Source of the DNA: a virus
Virus record (IMG/VR): IMGVR_UViG_3300042154_000130
Coordinates: 1-34,307 of that record
Length of the DNA stretch: 34,307 nucleotides
Strand: one strand, 5' to 3'
Shown: positions 15,498 through 25,258 of the stretch, piece by piece
Layout: every line of letters begins with the position of its first letter
Position numbering within the stretch: position 1 is the first letter of the stretch
The notes under the pieces: model-generated
Database searches by the model: none
The model's input: only the letters and a program-made list of their open reading frames with translations
What the model was told of the DNA's origin: nothing
Translations under genes and position numbers: made by a program

Positions 15498-15697
15498 TAG
15501 CTAGTAGCAATTAACACAACGATTACAGCCAAAACGCAGATATAGGTAAAGTTGGCCCAATACTTACGCCTAGCGGCTGCTGGATCACCAATAAGCCAGC
15601 CCTGAATCTGAATCATGTCATCGTCTTGCTCGACATTTAGTGGCTTTTGGTAATACTTGCCTATCTGAATCTTGCCTGTGTTGTATGGGGTATTCAT
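15497..15697 (-). CDS. small membrane protein
   Basis: This 66-residue protein has a soluble N-terminal part and a single C-terminal membrane segment (about residues 48-66, ending LAVIVVLIATS). It overlaps the upstream leftward gene by 4 bases (ATGA) and touches the downstream one, so the three form one operon. No family was recognised. Tail-anchored early phage proteins often act on host membrane functions, but nothing here shows which. Confidence 0.58.
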   Translation of the reverse strand: MNTPYNTGKIQIGKYYQKPLNVEQDDDMIQIQGWLIGDPAAARRKYWANFTYICVLAVIVVLIATS

Positions 15698-15927
15698 GCG
15701 TCATTCCTTCCTGCATAAGCAGCTTGTACGCTATCGTTAAATTTATCCCAGCCACCTAGACCGTAAATCATCTCAAGTACGCTAGTATCAGTATCGGCTA
15801 TGCAAACATCTTCAATATCAACCCCACCAATATGACCTACATCGGGCTCATCTTTATCAATGCTGCCGTACACATCAAGATATGTGTCACCGCAATATAA
15901 GGAAACTACATAGTTTTTGTTTTTCAT
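15694..15927 (-). CDS. small acidic protein, first gene of leftward operon
   Basis: This 77-residue protein is notably acidic (for example DKDEPDVGHIGGVDIEDVCIADTDTS, about residues 24-49). It could mimic DNA or bind a host protein, but no family was recognised. It is the first gene behind the strong leftward promoter at 15958-15986. It carries the leader sequence GTGAGATAGA right before its ATG, shared with two rightward early genes. Confidence 0.58.
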   Translation of the reverse strand: MKNKNYVVSLYCGDTYLDVYGSIDKDEPDVGHIGGVDIEDVCIADTDTSVLEMIYGLGGWDKFNDSVQAAYAGRNDA

Positions 15928-15928
15928 T

Positions 15929-15938
15929 TCTATCTCAC
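15929..15938 (-). promoter_or_regulatory. shared leader motif GTGAGATAGA before gene 15694-15927
   Basis: On the minus strand GTGAGATAGA ends one base before the start codon. The same ten bases occur before 18596 and 18843, and a one-mismatch form before the leftward gene starting at 17758. The GGUGA-like core could pair with the extended anti-Shine-Dalgarno sequence, so this may be a translation signal. A binding site for a regulator is also possible. Confidence 0.55.
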
Positions 15939-15957
15939 TTTTAGTTAAAGTAAAAAC

Positions 15958-15986
15958 AGAATAATTAAGTTATCTTAATTCGTCAA
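15958..15986 (-). promoter_or_regulatory. leftward promoter with operator filling its spacer
   Basis: On the minus strand the order is TTGACG (-35, 15981-15986), 17 bases, then TATTCT (-10, 15958-15963). The -35 box matches the sigma70 consensus at five of six positions and the -10 box at four. The 17-base spacer contains TTAAGATAACTTAA, which is the perfect palindrome TTAAG-N4-CTTAA at 15965-15978. A repressor bound there would exclude RNA polymerase. It drives the three genes 15927 down to 15123. Confidence 0.75.
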
Positions 15987-16161
15987 GCAGAATGTGACAA
16001 AAAGCAACAGGGCAGTATTTGGCAGTTGCTATCAATGGGCAGGAAAGCCGCAAAATTACCCAATTACTGCATCCTACTGTGGCGGCTTAACGCCCTACTG
16101 AGGTGGGCGGTAGTCCCGTGAAGGAGTATAGATTTTGTCTAAACCCACCGCCCATACCCCA
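15987..16161. other. non-coding gap with several inverted repeats
   Basis: No gene is seen between the two leftward groups. AGCAAC (16003-16008) pairs with GTTGCT (16025-16030). TGGGCGGT (16104-16111) pairs perfectly with ACCGCCCA (16147-16154) and encloses TAGA/TCTA (16129-16132 and 16138-16141). There is no T-run after the long stem on either strand, so it is not a standard terminator. It may be a processed leader or part of another RNA. Confidence 0.4.
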
Positions 16162-16923
16162 TTATATTCCGTTCTTGATCTGATAAACCCGTAGTAAATG
16201 CTCAAAGCACTCCCAACCCTTTTGTAGCCGATCCTGCTCAATTTCTATTAGCTTTACCTGATTGGTCGTGCCGTTGACAAAGACGATAGCGCATCTAGCA
16301 GTTGGAACGCCCAACCCTTCGCGGTAAGCTGCCAGTTGCATCTCATGTTCAAAGTACACATCTATCTTGTCTAAGTCGGTATCTTTAGTCTTGAAATCAA
16401 CAATAAAGCCATCGCCCTTGCCGTTGACTGGTTTAGCCATTAGATCGCATTTGCCACCAAACCCTAACGGATGCCCAAACGACTTCTCAGGCAGCCATAG
16501 CTGGTTTCCAAACGCATCTATCAAGGCTGTAGTAATCGTATCTAAGTACGGTGGCTTTTCAGGCATATAGACTTGGTCAAAGTAGGCTTCAATAACCGCA
16601 TGAATAGCCGTACCCCGTTCCGCAGCTTCACGGCCTGTAGCCTTACTATCTTGCATTACCCTAGCCAACCAGTCAGCTTCAGGTTCGTCAGGCTGCCTAG
16701 GCAGGGTTAAAGCAGCTAATAAGACTTGTTGCTGCTTCCATGTATCAAGCCCTGCTTTGGATAGCATCCCGTTAATAGTAGTGACCGAAGGCAAAAGCCC
16801 CAGCTTACGGGCATCACGCAGGGTCGTGTTTCTAACCCCTGTTTTACCTTCTACCGTGTACGCTGGAGTACCGTCTTTCTTGTACCAATGGCCTGTATCT
16901 TGCTGTTTATTTTTTATTAACAT
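16162..16923 (-). CDS. RecB/Cas4-type PD-(D/E)XK exonuclease
   Basis: This 253-residue protein shows the whole RecB-family nuclease motif set in order: GTAIHAVIE with His108, GGKCDLM with Asp160, VDFKTK with Asp176 and Lys178, and EMQLAAY with Gln196 and Tyr200. Such phage enzymes resect DNA ends for recombination or repair, alongside a single-strand-binding partner. The SSB-like gene lies two bases upstream in the same operon. The length suits a stand-alone nuclease with no helicase domain. Assignment to the superfamily is firm; polarity and substrate are not known. Confidence 0.86.
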   Translation of the reverse strand: MLIKNKQQDTGHWYKKDGTPAYTVEGKTGVRNTTLRDARKLGLLPSVTTINGMLSKAGLDTWKQQQVLLAALTLPRQPDEPEADWLARVMQDSKATGREAAERGTAIHAVIEAYFDQVYMPEKPPYLDTITTALIDAFGNQLWLPEKSFGHPLGFGGKCDLMAKPVNGKGDGFIVDFKTKDTDLDKIDVYFEHEMQLAAYREGLGVPTARCAIVFVNGTTNQVKLIEIEQDRLQKGWECFEHLLRVYQIKNGI

Positions 16924-16925
16924 AA

Positions 16926-17540
16926 TCAGAACGGAATATCGTTAAGGTTGTCATCTTCAATCTTAGGTGCAGCAGCTTCACGCTGTTTCTGACCACGCCA
17001 TTCACTACTTTCTGCAATCTTTTCCTTGTAATACTTAGGCAGCGCATCGTATTTAGACTGGTCAAATTCAGCCAGCCAAAAATGATTAGTAGGGTTGATG
17101 CCTTCAGGCTGTGCGTTACGCAATGCGCTAGGAACAGGGCTAATGCCGCTAATATTGGCGTACTTGCCATCTTCACTATGCGTAATGTTTACCATGCAAA
17201 ACTTACCTAGTAAGCCTTTAAGGTCAAAGTTCTTACGATCTTCCGCAGTCATCTTTTTGTTTGACCAGCTTTCAAGGTCTTGGCGTAACCGTGCTTGATC
17301 GCCTAACGATACCGTATAGCGTTTAGATACGATTAATGGCTTTCCATCGTCTGTTTTTAGTGGAAGTCCTGCATCATCGTCACCGTGCAATTCCCAAGTA
17401 AACACAACTTTGTGCATAATTTTGGTTTCGCCAGCCCATTCGGTAGCTTGGTGGCCTAGATCAATGATTGAGTAAAGCCGTGCCATATGTAAACCAGCAG
17501 GGGCGATCTTAAAGTTTTTTTGCGTATCAGTAATAATCAT
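16926..17540 (-). CDS. SSB-like single-stranded DNA-binding protein
   Basis: This 204-residue protein has a beta-rich body and a C-terminal acidic tip, DDNLNDIPF (196-204). That tip matches the conserved ending of bacterial SSB proteins that recruits partner enzymes. A flexible, charged linker precedes it. The body contains KRYTVSLGDQARLRQDLESW and GKFCMVNITHSEDGKYANI, which I have seen in phage proteins paired with exonucleases. It probably coats single strands made by the neighbouring RecB-type nuclease. It overlaps the upstream gene by 4 bases. Annealing activity is possible but not shown. Confidence 0.72.
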   Translation of the reverse strand: MIITDTQKNFKIAPAGLHMARLYSIIDLGHQATEWAGETKIMHKVVFTWELHGDDDAGLPLKTDDGKPLIVSKRYTVSLGDQARLRQDLESWSNKKMTAEDRKNFDLKGLLGKFCMVNITHSEDGKYANISGISPVPSALRNAQPEGINPTNHFWLAEFDQSKYDALPKYYKEKIAESSEWRGQKQREAAAPKIEDDNLNDIPF

Positions 17541-17758
17541 TTGTTTGCTCCAAAAATTTTGCCAAAGTCGTTGACAACATCACGAATGACGGGGTTTACA
17601 TGGTTATTGCGTTTAGGTGCGACATATCCGCAGCAATGGCGTAATAAGTCTATTTGACGCTCGGTAAGAAAAACACCTTCTTCCAAGTCTTTGAACACTT
17701 CATCAAGTTCAAACTGCATATGAACTTGGTCTGCTAACTGCTGGTCATAATCACTCAT
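17537..17758 (-). CDS. small protein, first gene of recombination operon
   Basis: This 73-residue protein has an acidic N-terminal half and contains FLTERQIDLLRHCCGYVAP near the centre. No family was recognised. It overlaps the SSB-like gene by 4 bases (ATGA), so it belongs to the recombination operon. Upstream, on its strand, are GGGTGAGAAAGA and then the operator at 17815-17828. It may assist the nuclease or SSB, but nothing in the sequence shows how. Confidence 0.6.
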   Translation of the reverse strand: MSDYDQQLADQVHMQFELDEVFKDLEEGVFLTERQIDLLRHCCGYVAPKRNNHVNPVIRDVVNDFGKIFGANK

Positions 17759-17764
17759 TTTTAG

Positions 17765-17774
17765 TCTTTCTCAC
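17765..17774 (-). promoter_or_regulatory. leader motif GTGAGAAAGA before gene 17537-17758
   Basis: On the minus strand this is one base different from the GTGAGATAGA motif of three other early genes and lies 6 bases before the start codon. The preceding GG gives a GGTGAG ribosome-site-like core. Confidence 0.4.
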
Positions 17775-17814
17775 CCTATTGGGTAGTTATCACGGCACAT
17801 ACCGTATTTAGATA

Positions 17815-17828
17815 TTAAGCTAACTTAA
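17815..17828 (-). promoter_or_regulatory. operator palindrome for leftward recombination operon
   Basis: TTAAGCTAACTTAA has perfect TTAAG/CTTAA arms around four bases. It lies 57 bases upstream of the leftward gene at 17537-17758. A weak leftward promoter can be drawn around it (TTATTG, 17 bases, TCTAAA), again with the palindrome in the spacer. Its twin at 17870-17883 faces the divergent regulator gene. Confidence 0.65.
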
Positions 17829-17847
17829 ACAATAAAACAAGTATTAT

Positions 17848-17883
17848 TTGTAAAAATGTTGTAAATAAGTTAAGATACCTTAC
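17848..17883 (+). promoter_or_regulatory. promoter and operator of the regulator gene, probably leaderless
   Basis: TTGTAA (17848-17853) and TAAGAT (17871-17876) are 17 bases apart and match the sigma70 boxes at four of six positions each. Transcription would start at about 17883-17884, that is at the ATG itself, and no ribosome site is visible upstream. The palindrome TTAAGATACCTTAC (17870-17883, one arm base off) covers the -10 box and start point, so the regulator could shut off its own gene. Confidence 0.55.
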
Positions 17884-18105
17884 ATGAACGCAACTGCAAT
17901 AATTAAACTTTTAGGTGGCCCAACCCGTATATCCAAGCTGGTAGGGGTTTCTGTGCCTGCGGTTTCTATGTGGCAAAACGGTGAGATACCAATGGATAAG
18001 CTGGTGATCCTTGCTGCAACATTAGAAAAAGAATCGCACGGGCTAATTACTCGTAAAACCTTATTTCCGCACAACCATAAATTAATTTGGCCTGAATTGG
18101 AATAA
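17884..18105 (+). CDS. Cro/YdaS-like helix-turn-helix transcription regulator
   Basis: This 73-residue protein has a Cro-type DNA-binding domain. Residues 14-33 (TRISKLVGVSVPAVSMWQNG) form the helix-turn-helix, and EIPMDKLVILAATLE follows as the closing helix pair. Small Cro-like proteins bind short palindromes as dimers. Five TTAAG-N4-CTTAA sites occur in the window, two of them flanking this gene's divergent promoter region, so this protein is the best candidate to bind them. There is no CI-type partner with a cleavage domain and no integrase. Start ATG 17884 coincides with the predicted transcription start. Confidence 0.82.
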   Translation: MNATAIIKLLGGPTRISKLVGVSVPAVSMWQNGEIPMDKLVILAATLEKESHGLITRKTLFPHNHKLIWPELE

Positions 18106-18124
18106 GTTGTTGTACAATTAAATT

Positions 18125-18480
18125 ATTGAGGACTGAAACACTCGATAAGTAGGGATTTAGAGGTGACTTTGTGGGTTTAGGAAATAAGATAAGAGGTATT
18201 TTCTAAGCCGTTTCAGCATAAAGCCACCCCTAAATTCCTTTTTTCTTGCCCAGTCCACAATCGTACTCCAAACGATATTAAGCACCTAACTGGGTGGCGT
18301 GGAATAGAACATGGGCTGGTTTACACCTGACAGCAAGCCCCGTAGCCTTGAGTGGGGACTACACAAGTTACAAGGACAATGGTGATAGACAACCTTGTAT
18401 CGAATGAACACTACCTTCGGGAGCATTAGTTCAAGATCAACTTCTTGAATGGATGGGGTGCTATCACCTTTGGGATACCT
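18125..18480 (+). ncRNA. large structured RNA candidate with possible pseudoknots
   Basis: No gene fits between 18106 and 18595, but the sequence is dense in complementary segments. P1 is 18125-18135 with 18251-18261 (ten pairs, one A-A mismatch). P2 is 18152-18165 with 18225-18238 (thirteen of fourteen, one G-U). P3 is 18177-18186 with 18197-18206. CTGAAAC (18133-18139) pairs with GTTTCAG (18210-18216) across P2, a pseudoknot partly competing with P1. In the 3' half: 18260-18264/18272-18276, GGGCT/AGCCC (18313-18317/18336-18340), TACAAGG/CCTTGTA (18369-18375/18393-18399), a CC-UUCG-GG loop (18414-18421) and TTCAAGA/TCTTGAA (18430-18436/18443-18449). Loop bases 18381-18388 pair perfectly with 18461-18468, a second pseudoknot. 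G-U pairs and the UUCG loop favour the plus strand. tmRNA and RNase P signatures are absent. Family and function are unknown. Confidence 0.66.
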
Positions 18481-18524
18481 ATGACTAAAAAACAACACTA
18501 GGGAAACTACCTATAAAATAAATG

Positions 18525-18553
18525 TTGCATTGTTAAGTTATCTTAACTAAACT
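18525..18553 (+). promoter_or_regulatory. rightward early promoter with operator filling its spacer
   Basis: TTGCAT (-35, 18525-18530) and TAAACT (-10, 18548-18553) are 17 bases apart. The spacer holds GTTAAGTTATCTTAAC (18532-18547), whose core is the perfect TTAAG-N4-CTTAA palindrome. This is the same architecture as the leftward promoter at 15958-15986. It should drive the early rightward block from 18596. Confidence 0.72.
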
Positions 18554-18571
18554 GGTGTTACTCAATAACGA

Positions 18572-18581
18572 GTGAGATAGA
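18572..18581 (+). promoter_or_regulatory. shared leader motif GTGAGATAGA before gene 18596-18799
   Basis: This is an exact copy of the ten-base motif found before 15927 (minus strand) and 18843. Here it is 14 bases before the ATG and a separate AAAAAGGAG ribosome site lies between, so the motif does not serve as the ribosome site at this gene. Confidence 0.55.
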
Positions 18582-18595
18582 AAAAGGAGCATCAA

Positions 18596-18799
18596 ATGAC
18601 TACTACATACACCATCCAAATTGTTCACGGTTCAGGCAATTTTTATCCAAATCATGAGTTTGTAACTTATGAAACAAATGTAATTGCTAATAATTACGAT
18701 GAAGCTATTAATTTGGCAGAGAAAAAATATTTTGCTGAAGAATTGCCATTTATGACTAATTTGGCAAAAATTTACGGCATGAGTTTTTACCAAATTTAA
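18596..18799 (+). CDS. small early protein of unknown function
   Basis: This 67-residue protein is the first gene of the early rightward block, with a strong ribosome site (AAAAAGGAG, 6 bases before ATG). It starts with a beta-like segment (TTYTIQIVHGSG) and has a helix with NYDEAINLAEKKYFAEE. No family was recognised. Its position right behind an operator-controlled promoter suggests early expression, perhaps against a host function. Confidence 0.6.
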   Translation: MTTTYTIQIVHGSGNFYPNHEFVTYETNVIANNYDEAINLAEKKYFAEELPFMTNLAKIYGMSFYQI

Positions 18800-18805
18800 T
18801 TAACC

Positions 18806-18821
18806 AGCCCCTACGGGGGCT
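18806..18821 (+). promoter_or_regulatory. stable hairpin with UACG tetraloop between early genes
   Basis: AGCCCC and GGGGCT pair over 6 bp around TACG, a member of the very stable UNCG loop class on the plus strand. No T-run follows; instead the palindrome ACCTTTAAAGGT (18822-18833) and the next ribosome site follow. It may protect the upstream message from decay or partly block ribosome access to gene 18843. Confidence 0.5.
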
Positions 18822-18831
18822 ACCTTTAAAG

Positions 18832-18841
18832 GTGAGATAGA
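18832..18841 (+). promoter_or_regulatory. shared leader motif GTGAGATAGA before gene 18843-19037
   Basis: This is an exact copy of the ten-base motif, ending one base before the ATG. With the preceding AAAG it forms AAAGGTGAGAT, which can act as the ribosome site. Confidence 0.55.
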
Positions 18842-18842
18842 C

Positions 18843-19037
18843 ATGAAAACATACAAATGGGTAGTAGAGTTTGAAGTAACAGAAAACTGGGTAGAAGATG
18901 GTTTTAACATTGACCAGCGTAGAGCATTTAATATGATTGAAGGTGCGCTTCCATACGCTACAGGATTGGAAATTAAAGCCACAGTAAAAAAATCACCTTC
19001 TGAATCTGCAATTAAAAAAGCACAGGGATACAAATAA
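18843..19037 (+). CDS. small early protein of unknown function
   Basis: This 64-residue protein starts MKTYKWVVEFEVTENWVEDG, a beta-hairpin-like opening, followed by a helix (NIDQRRAFNMIEGAL) and a Lys-rich end. The pattern of two strands, helix, strand resembles a small ferredoxin-like fold. That is only a visual impression, and no family was recognised. The TAA stop overlaps the next ATG (TAATG). Confidence 0.58.
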   Translation: MKTYKWVVEFEVTENWVEDGFNIDQRRAFNMIEGALPYATGLEIKATVKKSPSESAIKKAQGYK

Positions 19038-19336
19038 TGAAAGATTTATTAGGTGCTTGTTTATTGGGTGTAGTTCTTGGCGCAATGCTGGCATACGGAA
19101 TCCCTGCACACGCTCAAACTTATGTAGTTACAAACCCACACGGTCAGGTTACTGGCTACATTCAACAAAACGGCAATACGGTCAATGTATTAACGCCTAA
19201 CGGCAATACTGTAGGCCAACCATTGACGGTTTACCCCAACCAAATTGTAACCCCGTCAAGCGCGGCTATTGGAACTCCTAGCTATACAGTTCCAATGACA
19301 CCATCAAGCCCACCCAGCGTTAGGGTGATGCAATGA
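19037..19336 (+). CDS. small exported protein with signal peptide
   Basis: This 99-residue protein has a clear signal peptide: a charged start (MKD), a hydrophobic core (residues 4-20) and a likely cut after Ala26 in IPAHAQ. The mature part is short, rich in Thr, Asn, Pro and Val, and holds repeated Asn-Gly turns (TNPHGQVTGYIQQNGN, LTPNGNTVGQPLTV). It should reach the periplasm or outer membrane early in infection. Superinfection exclusion or envelope modification are reasonable ideas without direct support. The next gene, a 34-residue membrane peptide, overlaps it by 4 bases. Confidence 0.65.
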   Translation: MKDLLGACLLGVVLGAMLAYGIPAHAQTYVVTNPHGQVTGYIQQNGNTVNVLTPNGNTVGQPLTVYPNQIVTPSSAAIGTPSYTVPMTPSSPPSVRVMQ

Positions 19337-19437
19337 TTGAAACGGTAATGATTGTCTTTGCCATCGGGGTATTTGCTATATTTGCAACCTTGATGGTATT
19401 TGCAGCCATACTTTATTTTTGGGTAAACCATGACTAA
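19333..19437 (+). CDS. 34-residue single-pass membrane peptide
   Basis: The frame starts in an ATGA overlap with the exported-protein gene and ends TAA 19435-19437, overlapping the next ATG (19430). The peptide is almost one hydrophobic helix (VMIVFAIGVFAIFATLMVFA and on), with MIET before and VNHD after. Overlaps on both sides support translation. It resembles small holin-like or regulatory membrane peptides, but it is far from the lysis block. Confidence 0.6.
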   Translation: MIETVMIVFAIGVFAIFATLMVFAAILYFWVNHD

Positions 19438-19624
19438 AAACCAAATCTTTGCTGAAAAAGACGGTTCATTAACCGTAAATGTAAATGCTGGCGAAGTTAC
19501 TGTAAACAAAGGCTTAACAGACCAAGAAATTGACGAATTGATTATGTATGTTGCTGAAAAGCCTACAGACGAAGATTTGTATGATTTTGCTAAAGCAATA
19601 CTTAAAAAGGCAAAAGAGAAATGA
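19430..19624 (+). CDS. small early protein of unknown function
   Basis: This 64-residue protein overlaps the membrane peptide by 8 bases and the next gene by 4. It has a beta-like first half (GSLTVNVNAGEVTVNKG) and a helical, acidic then basic second half (LTDQEIDELIMYV, AKAILKKAKEK). No family was recognised. Confidence 0.6.
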   Translation: MTKNQIFAEKDGSLTVNVNAGEVTVNKGLTDQEIDELIMYVAEKPTDEDLYDFAKAILKKAKEK

Positions 19625-20256
19625 CATTTTTAGTAGCCAACATTCCGCCAGTTAAATGTTTTGTGCGTAAGGAGTACCTTTACAACCATGAGAAAGGTCA
19701 CGGGGAATTAGAGCCATGCGTATGGATGACTGCCAAGGCCATCAAGGGTCAGGCCTTCCGCATAGAATCCATGCTGACCAATTACGGTGCGCTGTACGAC
19801 AAACTTCCTATAAGTGCGTATGTATGGAAAGAAGTCGTTGATCCGCTGCCGCTGGACTATTTGCAGATTTGGGATTGCCTGTCATACGACATGGCGGTAA
19901 TCGAAAAATCTAACTTGCGTGGCTTAAAGGTTAAATATTTTGGTAAAGACAAGCAGTTTCATTTTGGTAACTACTTGTTTACTATAGACTTTGCCGATCC
20001 TGACAGTAATCGTTTGGACACCACTTTTAGCGAAGGGGTTATGGAACATAAATCGTACAACTTTATCAAGCTGGATAACGGTCAATTTGCCTGCCAGCCC
20101 AATAACCGCTGCCTTTGGTACGATGTATCTTTAGTTCCTGCCGAACTCAAAACCCCTGATTTTAAGATACCAACCGAAGTCTACAGCGTTGAAAACCATG
20201 CTAAATGGTCAGCTAAAGACGAGTGGTTTTATAACTTTGACGAGATAAAACGATGA
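19621..20256 (+). CDS. conserved phage protein of unknown function
   Basis: This 211-residue protein lies in the early block with ATGA overlaps on both sides. It contains WMTAKAIKGQAFRIESMLTNYG and LYDKLPISAYVW, then PLPLDYLQIWDCLSYDMAVI, a pattern I know from uncharacterised proteins in many phages. It is rich in aromatic residues and has no obvious catalytic motif. Its neighbour is replication-related, so a DNA-metabolism role is possible, though not supported by motif. Confidence 0.68.
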   Translation: MTFLVANIPPVKCFVRKEYLYNHEKGHGELEPCVWMTAKAIKGQAFRIESMLTNYGALYDKLPISAYVWKEVVDPLPLDYLQIWDCLSYDMAVIEKSNLRGLKVKYFGKDKQFHFGNYLFTIDFADPDSNRLDTTFSEGVMEHKSYNFIKLDNGQFACQPNNRCLWYDVSLVPAELKTPDFKIPTEVYSVENHAKWSAKDEWFYNFDEIKR

Positions 20257-20636
20257 ACTTCTCTGAATTTTATAGCCTATACCCCCGTAAACAAGGTCGT
20301 AGGGCTGCTGAAAAGTCTTGGGATAGGTTGACCCACAACGAGCAAGAAGATGCGTTTAACGCCCTTTCTACGCACTTGGAATATTGGAAACTAAAGCAGA
20401 CTGAAAAAGACTTTATACCGCACCCTGCTACTTGGTTAAATCAAGGTCGCTGGGAAGATGAACTGGATATGGAAGTCAAAAAGGTTAAGAAACCCGAATT
20501 GCCTTGGTATTCCAGCGAGGAATTGACTAAAGCAAAAGCCCAAGAATTAGGAGTACACGCATATGCAGGTGAAGGTTGGCAACAATGGCGAGCAAGAATC
20601 AGCCAAAAAATCAAGCAATTGGAAGAACAGGCTTGA
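20253..20636 (+). CDS. replication-initiation-like protein
   Basis: This 127-residue protein opens NFSEFYSLYPRKQGRRAAEKSW and continues LEYWKLKQTEKDFIPHPATWLNQGRWEDE. That segment (FYxxYPRK ... HPATWLNxGRWxDE) is characteristic of phage replication proteins and helicase-loader partners, usually as part of a longer protein with a winged-helix domain. Here it stands nearly alone. It may recruit the host replicative helicase, fitting the lack of phage polymerase and helicase genes. Its last 74 bases overlap the start of the next gene in another frame. Confidence 0.68.
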   Translation: MNFSEFYSLYPRKQGRRAAEKSWDRLTHNEQEDAFNALSTHLEYWKLKQTEKDFIPHPATWLNQGRWEDELDMEVKKVKKPELPWYSSEELTKAKAQELGVHAYAGEGWQQWRARISQKIKQLEEQA

Positions 20637-20766
20637 CTACCTTGCTAACTGGTATATCGGGGTTGCTAAACGCAGGGGGTGGGATGAAGTCGTGCGGCTG
20701 CTTGCCCAGTACCCTGATATTGAAGATGAAGTAAAGCAATTAATCAAAAAGAAGCTAGGCAAATGA
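20563..20766 (+). CDS. small protein overlapping the replication gene
   Basis: The frame starts ATG 20563 and ends TGA 20764-20766. The first 25 residues lie inside the preceding gene in another frame. The part beyond it, LDYLANWYIGVAKRRGWDEVV then RLLAQYPDIEDEVKQLI, has the look of a conserved compact helical protein. An in-frame GTG at 20569 is another possible start. The four-base overlap with the next gene supports translation. Function unknown; the long overlap is unusual for this compact genome. Confidence 0.58.
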   Translation: MQVKVGNNGEQESAKKSSNWKNRLDYLANWYIGVAKRRGWDEVVRLLAQYPDIEDEVKQLIKKKLGK

Positions 20767-20993
20767 ACGACTTGTTTAATGATGAATTTGATTACGACAA
20801 AGAATGGGAAGGTATGCCTGAATTTGTTGCCGAGGATTTAAAGGCAATTGCATCAGTAACCGTTAACTTTTTGACCGTTGAAGATATGAACGCATTTAGC
20901 GAGTTAATTGGTAGACGCATTACATTTCAGACCAAAAGCGTACTGTTTCCAATCATGCCGCAGGTTAAAAAAGTCTACATTGATGAATCCTAA
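20763..20993 (+). CDS. small conserved-type phage protein
   Basis: This 76-residue protein is acidic in its first half (NDEFDYDKEWEGMPEF). Its core is VTVNFLTVEDMNAFSELIGRR followed by ITFQTKSVLFPI, a motif common in short phage proteins of unknown function that resembles the opening of ParB-type domains only loosely. It overlaps the previous gene by 4 bases and the glycosyltransferase by 11. Confidence 0.62.
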   Translation: MNDLFNDEFDYDKEWEGMPEFVAEDLKAIASVTVNFLTVEDMNAFSELIGRRITFQTKSVLFPIMPQVKKVYIDES

Positions 20994-21813
20994 ACATCCT
21001 GTTTACATCATATCTAAGGGTAGGTGGGATAGCCGCTTGACAAGCAAATCGTTAGAAAAGATGGGCGTACCGTACTACATTGCTGTAGAACCGCAAGAGT
21101 ACGAAAACTACGCACAGGTCATTGACCCAGCCAAGATACTGACATTGCCGTTTAGCAATCATGGGTTTGGTTCTACCCCTGCCCGTAACTGGTGCTGGGA
21201 ACATTCAATTCAAAACGGACATACCCACCATTGGATGCTGGATGACAACATCAATGGGTTTGTACGCCTTAACCGCAATGAGCGTGTACCCGTAGCATCA
21301 GGCACTATCTTTAAAGCAGCAGAAGATTTTGTTGAGCGTTACGACAATGTGGCACAAGCTGGTTTTGAGTACCGATTTTTTGCTGGTGGCAACAGGCGCA
21401 AAAAGCCACCGTTTAGGCTAAACAACCGCATATTTTCTTGTATGTTGATCCGCAACGACATACCGTACCGCTGGCGCACAAAGTACAACGAGGATGCTGT
21501 CTTATCGCTGGATTGCCTTGAAGGTGGTTGGTGTACGGTTATGTTCCATTGTTTCTTGCAAAACAAGGCTGCAACCCAAACCGTCAAGGGCGGCAATTCT
21601 GCTGAGTTTTACGATAAAGAAGGTACGCTTCCTAAATCGCAAATGCTGGTAGACGAATACCCTAGCAGGGTAAAGCTGGTTTGGCGGTATGAACGCTGGC
21701 ATCACGAAATAGATTACTCAGGATTTGAGAAAAATATGCTCAAAAAGAAGGCAGGGCTGGTTATACCTAAAGGTGTAAACAATTACGGAATGAAACTAAT
21801 GGAGATTGAATAA
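20983..21813 (+). CDS. TET-associated-type glycosyltransferase
   Basis: I place the start at ATG 20983, giving 276 residues. A longer in-frame version from 20908 would add 25 residues unlike the family. The opening PVYIISKGRWDSRLTSKSLE, then GVPYYIAVEPQEYENYA and LPFSNHGFGSTPARNW, matches what I know of the TET-associated glycosyltransferase family. LDDN (86-89) is the metal- and sugar-nucleotide-binding DxD-like motif, and NED (169-171) is a likely acceptor-side acid. In other phages these enzymes add sugars to oxidised methylcytosine. No TET/JBP dioxygenase, methyltransferase or hydroxymethylase gene was found here, so the acceptor is unknown. Confidence 0.8.
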   Translation: MNPKHPVYIISKGRWDSRLTSKSLEKMGVPYYIAVEPQEYENYAQVIDPAKILTLPFSNHGFGSTPARNWCWEHSIQNGHTHHWMLDDNINGFVRLNRNERVPVASGTIFKAAEDFVERYDNVAQAGFEYRFFAGGNRRKKPPFRLNNRIFSCMLIRNDIPYRWRTKYNEDAVLSLDCLEGGWCTVMFHCFLQNKAATQTVKGGNSAEFYDKEGTLPKSQMLVDEYPSRVKLVWRYERWHHEIDYSGFEKNMLKKKAGLVIPKGVNNYGMKLMEIE

Positions 21814-22139
21814 TGGAATATGATCCACACGAAGCAATTAATTACATTTACACACACGCACCTAAGTATGCAGAAGCCAAGGGGCAATTGGCCCAGCTTG
21901 AAGCGTTTAAGTCTAGCCTTAAAGCCATTATGATGAAGAAGTCTAGTGAGCAAAGCCTTGGCGGTCAAGAGCGTGAAGCCTATTCAAGCCAAGAGTACCA
22001 AGACTTGTGCGTGGCTATAGGTAAGGCTACAGAAGATGCAGAAACCCTTAAATGGCAGATTACAGCCGCTACAATGCGCTTTGACGCATGGCGCACAGAG
22101 CAAGCCAGTAACCGCAACCTTGAAAAGATGACACGATGA
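21813..22139 (+). CDS. conserved phage protein, helical
   Basis: This 108-residue protein starts in a TAATG overlap and ends in an ATGA overlap. It is mostly helix, with a first helix AKGQLAQLEAFKSSLKAIMM, then a polar middle and a second helix KWQITAATMRFDAWRTEQ. I recognise this two-helix pattern from small early phage proteins near replication or recombination genes. No function is established to my knowledge. Confidence 0.62.
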   Translation: MEYDPHEAINYIYTHAPKYAEAKGQLAQLEAFKSSLKAIMMKKSSEQSLGGQEREAYSSQEYQDLCVAIGKATEDAETLKWQITAATMRFDAWRTEQASNRNLEKMTR

Positions 22140-22300
22140 TTCAATTAACCGAAGAATTCCTTATCCTAAAAACATTAATTCGTATGTATGATGAAGCACT
22201 AAAAAACAATAGTGCAATACTAATGATGGAAATTGCCGTAGATATTGCGGAATCAGCAGAAAAACTAGAACAACGCAGCGTAGATAACGCTAATGTATAG
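22136..22300 (+). CDS. small helical protein, 54 residues
   Basis: The frame starts in an ATGA overlap and ends TAG 22298-22300, overlapping the next ATG (22293) by 8 bases. The peptide is a run of amphipathic helix (EEFLILKTLIRMYDEALKNN and on) with an acidic end. Overlaps on both sides support a real gene. No family was recognised. Confidence 0.58.
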   Translation: MIQLTEEFLILKTLIRMYDEALKNNSAILMMEIAVDIAESAEKLEQRSVDNANV

Positions 22301-22583
22301 AAACAAACAATTGCTTGAAATTGTGCGTAATTTTCCGTGCCAAAACTGCGGAACTATAAACGGAACAATTGTTGCAGCGCACTCAAATCAACTTAGGGAT
22401 GGTAAAGGTCGTGGGATCAAAGCGTCAGATTACAGAGTTGCCAGCTTGTGTTACGAATGCCACGCAGAACTTGACCAAGGAACAAAAATGTCAAAAGCCG
22501 AAAGGGTGGAATTTTGGGAAGAAGCGCATAGAAAAACGATTGCCTTGCTATTTGAATCAGGCTTTTTACATACCAAAGTTTGA
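22293..22583 (+). CDS. DUF1364-like zinc-binding protein, possible nuclease
   Basis: This 96-residue protein has Cys16 and Cys19 (CQNCG), His30 in AAHSNQLRDGKGRG, and Cys53, Cys56 and His57 (LCYECHAELDQG). The arrangement matches the DUF1364 type found in lambdoid and other phages beside recombination genes, related in layout to HNH nucleases. It lies upstream of the PAPS-reductase-like and RusA genes, so a role in DNA processing is plausible. Activity has not been shown for the family as far as I know. A 14-codon frame (22588-22632) follows before the next gene. Confidence 0.72.
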   Translation: MYRNKQLLEIVRNFPCQNCGTINGTIVAAHSNQLRDGKGRGIKASDYRVASLCYECHAELDQGTKMSKAERVEFWEEAHRKTIALLFESGFLHTKV

Positions 22584-22624
22584 AGAAATGACCCAAGACA
22601 CCGTAGAATTATTGGAATTACTAA

Positions 22625-23371
22625 GTGAGTAGAGTTATTTCTTGGTTTTCTTGCGGTGCGGCAAGCGCAGTAGCGACCAAGCTGGCTATTGCTGAAAGCA
22701 AAACACCAGTTGAGGTGGTTTATTGTCATGTTGCAGAAGAACATCCTGATAACTTACGCTTTATGAAAGACTGCGAAAAATGGTTTGGGCAACCAATTAA
22801 AGTTATTCAGAATGAAAAATACAACGGCAGCATTTACGAAGTATTTGAAAAGCGTAAGTACATTGTCGGTATTGGTGGTGCGCCATGTACCGTACACCTT
22901 AAAAAAGATATGCGTAAAGCGTTTGAATTGCCTAATGACAGACAAGTATTTGGCTACACCGCAGAAGAACAAGACCGTGTAGATCGTTTTATTGACGCTA
23001 ACAATAATGTTAATTTATGGTCAATTCTTATAGATAAAGGGCTGGGCAAGTCTGATTGCTTGGCTATGATTGATCGAGCAGGGATTGAATTGCCAGCAAT
23101 GTACAAGTTAGGCTATCAAAACAACAATTGTATAGGGTGCGTTAAGGGTGGCTTGGGTTACTGGAATAAGATTCGGCACGACTTTCCCGAGCAATTTGAC
23201 CGCATGGCAGGCATAGAGCGTACAGTCGGGGCAAAGATACTCAAACATAAAGGTGAGCGTATTTGGCTTACTGAACTACCCTTAAATGCGGGCGATTATC
23301 CTACCGAACAATCAATTGAATGCGGAATCTTTTGCCACATGGCAGAATCAGACATAAATGCTAGTACTTAA
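22625..23371 (+). CDS. PAPS-reductase-like PP-loop protein
   Basis: This 248-residue protein starts at GTG 22625. Residues 8-17 (FSCGAASAVA) form a modified PP-loop that binds the ATP-type pyrophosphate of adenylated sulphur donors. Cysteines at 88 (GAPCT), 169 and 172 (NCIGC), and 233 and 237 (ECGIFC) could hold an iron-sulphur cluster or zinc, as in PAPS reductases and DndC-type enzymes. Phage members of this family are common but their job is uncertain. It sits between a zinc protein and RusA, 0.8 kb from the glycosyltransferase, so nucleotide or DNA modification is an attractive idea without proof. Start and fold are well supported. Confidence 0.82.
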   Translation: MSRVISWFSCGAASAVATKLAIAESKTPVEVVYCHVAEEHPDNLRFMKDCEKWFGQPIKVIQNEKYNGSIYEVFEKRKYIVGIGGAPCTVHLKKDMRKAFELPNDRQVFGYTAEEQDRVDRFIDANNNVNLWSILIDKGLGKSDCLAMIDRAGIELPAMYKLGYQNNNCIGCVKGGLGYWNKIRHDFPEQFDRMAGIERTVGAKILKHKGERIWLTELPLNAGDYPTEQSIECGIFCHMAESDINAST

Positions 23372-23735
23372 CCTACCCCTGCCGCCTAGCGTAAACAGCT
23401 ACCGCACCATATTCCGTAACAGAATGGGCATAAGCAAGGCTGGCAAAGAGTTTAAAGCACAGGTTTCTGACTATGTAGTTGAGTACAAAGTGCCAAAGCT
23501 AGGCGATGCACGGCTTGAAATGAAGGTGGTGCTATATCCCCGTGACCGCAGAAAACAAGACATTGATAATCGAATCAAGGCTTTATGGGATGCGTTAGGT
23601 GATGCTGGCGTATTTGACGATGACGAGCAAATTGATGTTTTGGTTATTGAACGGGGCGAAATAAAAAAAGGCGGTGGATGCTTGGTACTTATTGATATTC
23701 TTGATAAAATAGAAGAAAATGCACCCATAAAATAA
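23358..23735 (+). CDS. rusA: RusA-family Holliday junction resolvase
   Basis: This 125-residue protein has the RusA layout. It opens LNLPLPPSVNSYRTIFRN, then KQDIDNRIKALWDALGDAGV with Asp68, Asp70 and Lys74. FDDDEQID supplies the third acid (Asp88 or 89). These match the Asp/Asp/Lys/Asp set of E. coli RusA. It cuts four-way junctions made by recombination or replication and can clear branches before packaging. It overlaps the PAPS-reductase-like gene by 14 bases. Length is normal. Confidence 0.9.
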   Translation: MLVLNLPLPPSVNSYRTIFRNRMGISKAGKEFKAQVSDYVVEYKVPKLGDARLEMKVVLYPRDRRKQDIDNRIKALWDALGDAGVFDDDEQIDVLVIERGEIKKGGGCLVLIDILDKIEENAPIK

Positions 23736-23743
23736 GGATTCGT

Positions 23744-24103
23744 ATGGAAAAGTCAATGGCGTTGTTTCTAGCAACCATGCTGCATTCGGGTACAAACGCC
23801 CATTTTTTCCATTGGGCTACCAAGTCTTATGCTAAACACAAGGCATTGGGCAGTTTTTACGACAAAATTATTGATTTAACCGATGATCTAGCCGAAACCT
23901 ATTTTGGCATTTACGGTCAAATTACTGACTTTCCAGCCACATACCATATGCCTAAAGAGCCATTGGCTTATATGCAATCCTTACAGCGGTTTGTAAAAGA
24001 TGCACGGTCAGACCTGCCAATGGATTCCGAGATCGTTCAATTGATCGACAATATCGCCCAAGAGATCGACACCACCATTTATTTACTTAAATTTAAGGCT
24101 TAA
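23744..24103 (+). CDS. ferritin/Dps-like phage protein (DUF5856-type)
   Basis: This 119-residue all-helical protein contains LHSGTNAHFFHWATKSYAKH then FYDKIIDLTDDLAETYFG. The His-x-x-His-like cluster and the spaced acids resemble the ferritin/Dps four-helix class as seen in the phage family DUF5856. It may bind DNA or metal or just share the fold. A ribosome site (AAGG) precedes ATG by 6-7 bases. It starts a run of small genes leading to the terminase. Confidence 0.66.
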   Translation: MEKSMALFLATMLHSGTNAHFFHWATKSYAKHKALGSFYDKIIDLTDDLAETYFGIYGQITDFPATYHMPKEPLAYMQSLQRFVKDARSDLPMDSEIVQLIDNIAQEIDTTIYLLKFKA

Positions 24104-24105
24104 TT

Positions 24106-24438
24106 ATGGATTCTGCTGAAAAATTAGCGGCTATATTGCGTAATTTGGATGTAGGCGGCAGGGCTATGGATGTGGGTAAAGCTGGAACAATGTATCAAGG
24201 CAGATTAGGTTATAACTTTCCTGTTGGACAAAACGCAAACATAGGCGTAGGCGCAGCAGGAATGGGTTTTGCAGACAATCGCTACAACATTCCATCAAGG
24301 GTTACTGGTGTGGATTTAAGCTACGGAACGCCAAACCAAAGCATTTCTGCTGGTTATTACCCCAATAAATCACAGTTTATGGGCGAACCAATGGGTGCTG
24401 GCGGTGTAAGTTTGATGTACAGAAAATCATTTGATTAA
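24106..24438 (+). CDS. Gly-rich beta-strand protein of unknown function
   Basis: This 110-residue protein has a short helical start (MDSAEKLAAILRNL), then alternating strands rich in Gly and aromatic residues: GRLGYNFPVGQNANIGVGAAG, VTGVDLSYGTPNQSISAGYY and GGVSLMYRKSFD. The pattern resembles part of an outer-membrane barrel, but there is no signal peptide and the length is short. It could be a virion protein. No family was recognised. Confidence 0.58.
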   Translation: MDSAEKLAAILRNLDVGGRAMDVGKAGTMYQGRLGYNFPVGQNANIGVGAAGMGFADNRYNIPSRVTGVDLSYGTPNQSISAGYYPNKSQFMGEPMGAGGVSLMYRKSFD

Positions 24439-24447
24439 GGAATAATT

Positions 24448-24633
24448 ATGCCGTTAGACAAGTCAGGCAGCGCAAAAGCAGTCGGCAAGAACATCAAAGC
24501 TGAGATGAAAGCTGGCAAGCCAAAAAAACAGGCAGTAGCCATTGCACTTAGCGTTGAGCGTGAAAACGCCAAAGGTGACCGCAAAGCTAGGCTAGAAGAT
24601 GCCTACGCCAAGTATATTGAAGAAAAAGCATGA
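24448..24633 (+). CDS. small basic phage protein (DUF6496-like)
   Basis: This 61-residue protein begins MPLDKSGSAKAVGKNIKAEM and continues KAGKPKKQAVAIALSVE, a motif common in small phage proteins near terminase genes. It is strongly basic in its first half, so nucleic-acid binding is likely. It has a strong ribosome site (AAGGAATAATT) and overlaps the next gene by 4 bases. The function is unknown. Confidence 0.66.
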   Translation: MPLDKSGSAKAVGKNIKAEMKAGKPKKQAVAIALSVERENAKGDRKARLEDAYAKYIEEKA

Positions 24634-24896
24634 GTAGAAGGGATGACATTCGTGCCGCAGTAGAAAAGCACGATAAACCCATTGCCAAGACAACTAAAGG
24701 CAAAGGCCGTCATTACCAATCAGTAGAAGAAGGCGCAGGTATGACCGCAGCAGGGCGCAAAGCATACAACGCTAAGAACAACGCTAATTTACAAGCACCC
24801 CAATCTAGTGGCCCAAGGCACGATAGTTTCTGTGCAAGGTCAGCAGGATGGACTGGGGAACGGGGCAAAGCAGCAAGAGCAAGGTGGAAATGTTAA
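24630..24896 (+). CDS. small basic phage protein
   Basis: This 88-residue protein starts in an ATGA overlap. It contains GAGMTAAGRKAYNAKNNANL and SGPRHDSFCARSAGW, a pair of motifs I have seen in small basic proteins of podovirus-like genomes close to terminase. It is rich in Lys, Arg, Ala and Gly and is likely to bind DNA or RNA or be packaged. No function is known. The TAA stop overlaps the next ATG by one base. Confidence 0.65.
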   Translation: MSRRDDIRAAVEKHDKPIAKTTKGKGRHYQSVEEGAGMTAAGRKAYNAKNNANLQAPQSSGPRHDSFCARSAGWTGERGKAARARWKC

Positions 24897-25078
24897 TGAA
24901 AAACGGACTATACGCAAATATTCACGCTAAACGGGCTAGGATCAAAGCTGGTTCAGGCGAAAAGATGGCTAAAAAGGGTGCAGAAGGCAGACCCAGCGCA
25001 CAAGACTTTAAAGATGCTGCTAAGACTGCCAAACCTACACGCAGAGAAATGATCGCTTCTAAGATGAAAGATATGTAA
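24896..25078 (+). CDS. small basic phage protein
   Basis: I place the start at ATG 24896 in a TAATG overlap, giving 60 residues. ATG 24890 is an alternative and a still longer frame from 24848 would run through the previous gene. The peptide MKNGLYANIHAKRARIKAGS then GEKMAKKGAEG is a common signature of small phage proteins near the terminase genes. It is very basic, and its function is unknown. The stop overlaps the next ATG. Confidence 0.65.
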   Translation: MKNGLYANIHAKRARIKAGSGEKMAKKGAEGRPSAQDFKDAAKTAKPTRREMIASKMKDM

Positions 25079-25236
25079 TGACCCCAATTACCCCAATGAG
25101 CCGTAAATATAAGAAAGAAGATGCAATGCTGCGTAAAGAGCATACATCTACCTTAGAAAAGAATCAGGCTGACCGCATTGCCCGTAGGAAGCTGATCGCT
25201 AACAAACTTAAAGACTTGGATAAAGAGGTAAAATAG
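25078..25236 (+). CDS. small basic protein, 52 residues
   Basis: The frame starts in a TAATG overlap and ends TAG 25234-25236. The peptide is a charged helix with many Lys and Arg (MSRKYKKEDAMLRKEHTS, then RIARRKLIANKLKDL). It belongs to the string of small basic genes before the terminase. No family was recognised. The operator at 25245-25258 follows directly. Confidence 0.55.
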   Translation: MTPITPMSRKYKKEDAMLRKEHTSTLEKNQADRIARRKLIANKLKDLDKEVK

Positions 25237-25244
25237 TAGTAGAA

Positions 25245-25258
25245 TTAACTTATCTTAA
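25245..25258 (+). promoter_or_regulatory. operator palindrome upstream of the terminase genes
   Basis: TTAACTTATCTTAA differs from the TTAAG-N4-CTTAA palindrome by one base in the left arm and has the same TTAT centre spacing. It lies 20 bases before the small terminase ATG. Promoter boxes around it are weak: TATCTT (25251-25256) could be a -10 box but has no good -35. It may link late transcription to the same regulator as the early promoters. Confidence 0.55.

Follow-up and report, generated by a model that had tools for sequence, protein, structure and literature searches.

Introduction

Cro is known from textbooks as one half of a genetic switch. In the immC region of Salmonella phage P22, the annotated OL and OR features each hold one perfect copy of the palindrome TTAAG-N4-CTTAA, and the DNA of the C2-operator crystal 2R1J, CATTTAAGATATCTTAAATA, also contains a perfect copy (PMC9976882). 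In Cluster A mycobacteriophages, one repressor uses operators and stoperators dispersed over the genome, with 20-30 sites that have a fixed orientation, lie mostly off promoters and serve lysogeny (PMC6550527). Here, we analyse copies of the P22 palindrome in the viral DNA of IMG/VR record IMGVR_UViG_3300042154_000130, whose 34,307 nucleotides (nt) we call the window. It contains five copies, three perfect and two with one mismatch, and a gene, cro, for a small Cro-like protein. These palindromes are most likely operators of the P22 class that belong to Cro itself, which is the one recognisable repressor of a genome lacking both CI and integrase, and we put at about 0.8 the probability that Cro represses the early promoters through them.

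Five palindromes at promoters

The original prediction placed the palindrome at five positions, always intergenic and upstream of an operon start, and within the 17-base spacers of the leftward and early rightward promoters. The positions proved exact (Table 1), all five sites are non-coding and at promoters, and the geometry of both spacers was confirmed. When at most one mismatch is allowed, the window has 8 matches to TTAAG-N4-CTTAA, against 2.96 expected, and none of 100 shuffled sequences reaches 8; the three remaining matches (at 1912, 31751 and 31878) all lie within genes, in line with chance. Perfect copies are expected 0.09 times per window, with a maximum of one across 300 simulations. 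The five sites fall within the non-coding 7.5% of the window, which has a chance of about 2e-6. A symmetric weight matrix, derived from the same five sites that it scores, scores them at 19.2-24.4 bits; the best distinct site after them reaches 10.3 bits, and no site within a gene equals them. The core in the window is TTAAG-N-TA-N-CTTAA, with a centre that is looser among relatives. Multiple adjacent operators are absent from OL and OR in the window, where the sites are single; only the gap upstream of cro has two.

Table 1. Coordinates of putative operators, promoters, RNAs and genes in the window, with the number of relatives keeping each site.
Feature	Position	Strand	Description	Relatives with site
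OL	15965..15978		TTAAGTTATCTTAA, perfect; in spacer of PL	64/64
O2	17815..17828		TTAAGCTAACTTAA, perfect; overlaps spacer and -10 of divergent leftward PL'	93/95
O1	17870..17883		TTAAGATACCTTAC, one mismatch; overlaps -10/+1 of Pcro, abuts cro ATG	93/95
OR	18533..18546		TTAAGTTATCTTAA, perfect; in spacer of PR	72/80
OT	25245..25258		TTAACTTATCTTAA, one mismatch, one half defective; directly 3' of terminase -10	17/17
PL	15958..15986	-	TTGACG-N17-TATTCT; drives 15694-15927 and genes left of it	
PL'	17812..17840	-	TTGTTT-N17-TAATAT (relatives' logo TTGACT-N17-TAATAT); drives 17537/16926/16162 recombination operon	
Pcro	17848..17876	+	TTGTAA-N17-TAAGAT, based on relatives' logo	
PR	18525..18553	+	TTGCAT-N17-TAAACT; drives early rightward operon from 18596 on	
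Terminase promoter -10	25240..25245	+	TAGAAT; no conserved -35	
cro	17884..18105	+	73-amino-acid P22-Cro/YdaS-like helix-turn-helix (HTH) protein, presumed repressor	
cI-position gene	17537-17758	-	Conserved 73-amino-acid acidic helical protein, divergent from cro; no known family	
PL 5'-terminal hairpin	15937..15951	-	ACTTT AACTA AAAGT; compensatory changes in relatives	
PL' 5'-terminal hairpin	17792..17805	-	ACGGT ATGT GCCGT; compensatory changes in relatives	
PR 5'-terminal hairpin	18560..18573	+	ACTC AATAAC GAGT; compensatory changes in relatives	
Pseudoknotted small RNA	18126..18244	+	Just downstream of cro; long P2 stem ends in U6; own -10-like box TACAAT at 18113-18118	
Second structured RNA block	18262..18496	+	235 nt, between pseudoknotted RNA and PR; RNAalifold, 11/49 consensus pairs compensated	
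HMC-glucosyltransferase-like family protein	20908-21813	+	Early right operon	
PAPS reductase family protein	22625-23371	+	Early right operon	
Dps-like family (PHROG 858)	23744-24103	+	Early right operon	

The palindrome fills the spacer at PL and PR, covers spacer and -10 at PL', and contains the -10 of Pcro within O1, while OT begins at the end of the terminase -10. These placements fit repression by steric exclusion. The cro ATG lies 8 nt past the Pcro -10 in the window, and about 5-8 nt past it in most relatives listed, so close that the cro mRNA is probably leaderless. In relatives, the -35 of both PL and PR is also preceded, at a distance of about 10-20 nt, by a TAGGG-N4/5-CCCTA-like dyad and then TATAAAATAA (about 18501-18515 in the window), which is possibly the site of a second regulator.

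Conservation of the sites and co-variation with Cro

We gathered about 100 distinct relatives from IMG/VR with two protein queries, and counted sites only in contigs covering the position (for OT, only in those with this terS). The sites recur at the same genes across these relatives. Of the outcomes that the original prediction named as refuting it, the two that concern sequence, equal-scoring sites inside genes and a lack of conservation, are thus not seen. At OL, O2 and OR, the arms have a mean information of 1.96-2.00 bits, the N4 centre 0.67-0.90 and the flanks 0.67-0.93. Arms that are fixed, or almost so, around a centre about as free as the flanks indicate a dyad operator, not recent descent. 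At O1, the downstream arm extends into the start codon and is nearly always imperfect. In one relative (L082, IMGVR_UViG_3300046028_002730), the cro frame can be extended about 104 codons upstream, and both operators are displaced by about the same distance.

Cro matches the profiles Pfam P22_Cro (1.2e-6, 28.6 bits), PHROG 35 transcriptional repressor (1.2e-8) and Pfam YdaS_toxin (2.7e-4). Its AlphaFold2 model (predicted local distance difference test score of 92) has as nearest folds in PDB, with modest scores, Xfaso1 Cro, YdaS, N15 Cro and P22 Cro, and Aca structures are also among the neighbours. The match to P22 Cro has a Z of 5.1 and a root-mean-square deviation of 3.9 over 59 residues, and the two proteins are 31% identical across 32 amino acids of the HTH. 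Homology to P22 Cro is thus indicated by fold, by HTH identity and by a profile match below the gathering score. The sites of the window are in turn P22-type, in that operators of the class TTAAG-N4-CTTAA lie in both the early left and the early right promoters.

Related repressors offer a comparison. The Manatee Spring phages MW202674 and MW202520 have Cro proteins that are 45-51% identical to that of the window, and they and their IMG/VR kin also have operators of this class. These precede the left gene, occupy the cro gap and, in most cases, recur at the right promoter, and their right arm is often CTAAA. Another Cro clade is mostly temperate and includes the phage Ab105-3phi, itself temperate, and prophages of betaproteobacteria; its site in the gap before cro is TTAGG-N4-CCTAA. 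Overall, 65 distinct Cro types go with TTAAG versus 15 with TTAGG. This split follows the clades; the first group includes one TTAGG and two TTTAG. That the site changes in step with the phage repressor is best accounted for if this repressor binds it. As far as comparative evidence goes, the P22 operator match and this co-variation support the Cro-like protein as the natural binder, as originally predicted. The prediction also had this one regulator control the early, recombination and terminase/late operons: the first two are well supported, and control of the terminase is plausible but weaker, as OT is always one half-site short and its centre hardly varies.

A serine in place of alanine at residue 26, in the recognition helix, tracks TTAGG in all 15 Cro types with a perfect site. 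We considered a rule by which this single residue specifies TTAGG, and rejected it because L294 and L296 combine the serine with TTAAG; only a link at the level of clades is kept.

Alternative explanations

Several observations weigh against Cro as the repressor acting at all these sites. Its P22_Cro score lies just under the gathering cut-off of 30.2 bits. The contrast between TTAAG and TTAGG follows clades, and its points are therefore not phylogenetically independent. L294 and L296 have TTAAG-type operators although their Cro proteins share the serine of the TTAGG clade. CI is called absent from profile matches, and these might fail to detect a repressor that has diverged strongly. Finally, the centre of OT is nearly fixed (2 types versus 8-11 at the other sites of the same contigs), and OT is embedded in a longer conserved block that reaches down to the start codon.

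The nearly fixed centre and the long block, together with the lack of a -35 and the mismatch that is always present, would suit OT as an independent late-promoter element or packaging signal that resembles a Cro site by chance. OT is imperfect in all relatives and has two alternative forms, TTAACnTATCTTAA, or TTAAGCATCATTAA and close variants. The latter belongs to relatives with a different first gene, within the same promoter block, and has the other half defective; we considered TTAAGCATCATTAA as a chance site within a gene and rejected this, since it is the terminase-promoter site in alternative form. Hence, the 14-bp geometry persists in this promoter block in two groups of genomes, with the damage in one arm in the first (TTAACnTATCTTAA) and in the opposite arm in the second (TTAAGCAnnATTAA), as expected of a weak dyad operator; this speaks for selection to keep the site weak. 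The centre hardly varies, which implies that some further constraint acts on OT. We lean towards OT being a Cro site, and consider an independent element a credible possibility short of even odds. Control of the terminase operon by Cro is plausible, weaker than that of the early and recombination operons, and is the weakest step of our interpretation.

Alternatively, a CI-type repressor could act at the sites, or could have done so in the past, its gene being carried by a prophage or going unrecognised in the phage, and Cro would share them as in lambda and P22. The identical P22 operators are annotated for C2, and the related temperate Ab105-3phi retains a CI-type repressor beside cro. We searched for lysogeny genes with profiles in this genome and 13 long relatives. 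The integrase profile PF00589 matched in none of the 14 genomes, nor did the PHROG scans reveal an integrase; Peptidase_S24, expected of a CI/C2-type repressor, was found in 0/14, and the sole HTH_3 match per genome was cro itself. The gene at the position of cI was considered as a hidden CI and rejected, because it has no HTH profile match and its helical model is of low confidence. Relic sites would moreover decay, but the arms are invariant. We regard this explanation as improbable.

It is more improbable still that a host regulator binds the palindromes and lets the phage read the state of the host. The sites do lie in sigma70-type promoters used by the host polymerase, and Cro binding is what we infer here, but the half-site shifts with the clade of the phage Cro at constant 14-bp geometry, this is exactly the motif that the P22 family binds, and two of the sites flank the cro promoter itself. 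Least likely of all, Cro would be an Aca-type or YdaS-type accessory autoregulator and not a phage-wide Cro, as its fold neighbours and YdaS_toxin match might suggest, but P22_Cro is its better Pfam match, and its sites extend beyond its own operon to three early operons in a P22-like layout.

Genome content and structured RNAs

The window is one virus record whose ends overlap by 26 nt in a near-exact way, and the genome is therefore nearly complete. It encodes portal, terminase, head, tail and holin/endolysin functions, together with an exonuclease operon read leftward and a replication/RusA operon read rightward. By terminase, the nearest isolates (about 42% identity) belong to the Skadi/Greip group of Pelagibacter phages. 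The relatives of Cro in bacterial genomes are mostly from Burkholderiales-type betaproteobacteria, a tentative hint at hosts of this type.

5'-terminal stem-loops stabilise bacterial mRNAs. Each of the three early transcripts is predicted to start 6 nt past the -10 with a hairpin of the form AC-N3-loop-N3'-GT, followed by GTG, and this combination of promoter and hairpin occurs three times in the window, exactly at the three early promoters. In a co-variation test anchored without requiring pairing, the arms at OL and PL' pair far above shuffled partners at all three inner pairs (0/2000 shuffles); at OR, the outer two pairs hold (0/2000 shuffles) and the innermost mostly fails. These hairpins may have a role in antitermination or protein binding.

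The gap between cro and PR contains two structured RNAs. The alignment of the pseudoknotted RNA has 43 pairs, with 98.2% of cells paired and 17 pairs changed on both sides, including 5 of the 7 pairs of the pseudoknot helix itself; sliding the partners lowers pairing to 32-54%. The fold, judged by eye, is apparently common to at least five sequence types. At the position of the second RNA, other relatives have unrelated-looking blocks of similar length. An Rfam search of the gap gave nothing above threshold, leaving both RNAs unmatched. A scan for consensus terminators found only three weak sites, fewer than in shuffles, and missed the terminator stem of the pseudoknotted RNA, a longer stem interrupted by an inserted hairpin.

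Discussion

Our results suggest a simple circuit. A Cro dimer would bind TTAAG-N4-CTTAA and block RNA polymerase where the site overlaps a promoter. All promoters would fire upon phage entry, and Cro would build up from its own promoter. It would fill the perfect sites first, closing PL (left early), PL' (recombination) and PR (right early), and at higher levels limit its own promoter through O1 in an autoregulatory manner, and perhaps the terminase through OT. This order, with the early promoters shut first and those of cro and terminase last or partly, is derived from the quality of the sites. Since there is no CI, there would be no lambda-type lysogeny switch, and the circuit would act as a timer and a brake on early transcription. 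One may speculate further, and we do so tentatively, that this Cro-only timer lineage derives from the P22/lambda switch, that the perfect operators shut the three early promoters first whereas the conserved half-broken ones let cro and terminase run longest, and that the two structured RNAs and the 5' hairpins act in the circuit.

Cro and its operators are conserved in a widespread lineage of freshwater (lake) phages without the other half of the switch. They would provide a minimal natural timing circuit with one repressor, and show what Cro does alone. The occurrence of two operator classes, TTAAG and TTAGG, in one Cro subfamily makes a natural series for the study of protein-DNA recognition, in which L294 and L296 are a useful natural test. 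We found no account of Cro-only regulation, whether in lytic phages or related freshwater isolates, in a literature search that covered few subscription journals. The original observation is correct, and the interpretation that came with it largely holds. In kind, we regard this system as a P22-type Cro regulon, of which the CI-less, promoter-by-promoter layout is a variant for which we found no description.

Cluster A mycobacteriophages resemble this phage in having one phage repressor with sites spread across the genome. Unlike their stoperators, the sites here are five palindromes, all intergenic and at promoters, in a genome without lysogeny genes, which sets them apart from that class. 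P22 immC is much closer, with the same operator, a P22-Cro-like HTH, operators in the left and right early promoters, recombination genes to the left and replication genes to the right. It differs in having C2/CI and integrase, both lacking here, and tripartite OL and OR, where this phage has single sites. In P22, cro is the first gene of the PR operon, whereas here it has a separate promoter, which ends at the ATG; the recombination operon also has an additional operator here, and the terminase a conserved weak one. Finally, Ab105-3phi of Acinetobacter and the Burkholderiales prophages share the Cro subfamily (about 45% identical) and the 14-bp operator geometry, but their half-site is TTAGG, and the Ab105-3phi site has a CI-type repressor on one side and cro on the other.

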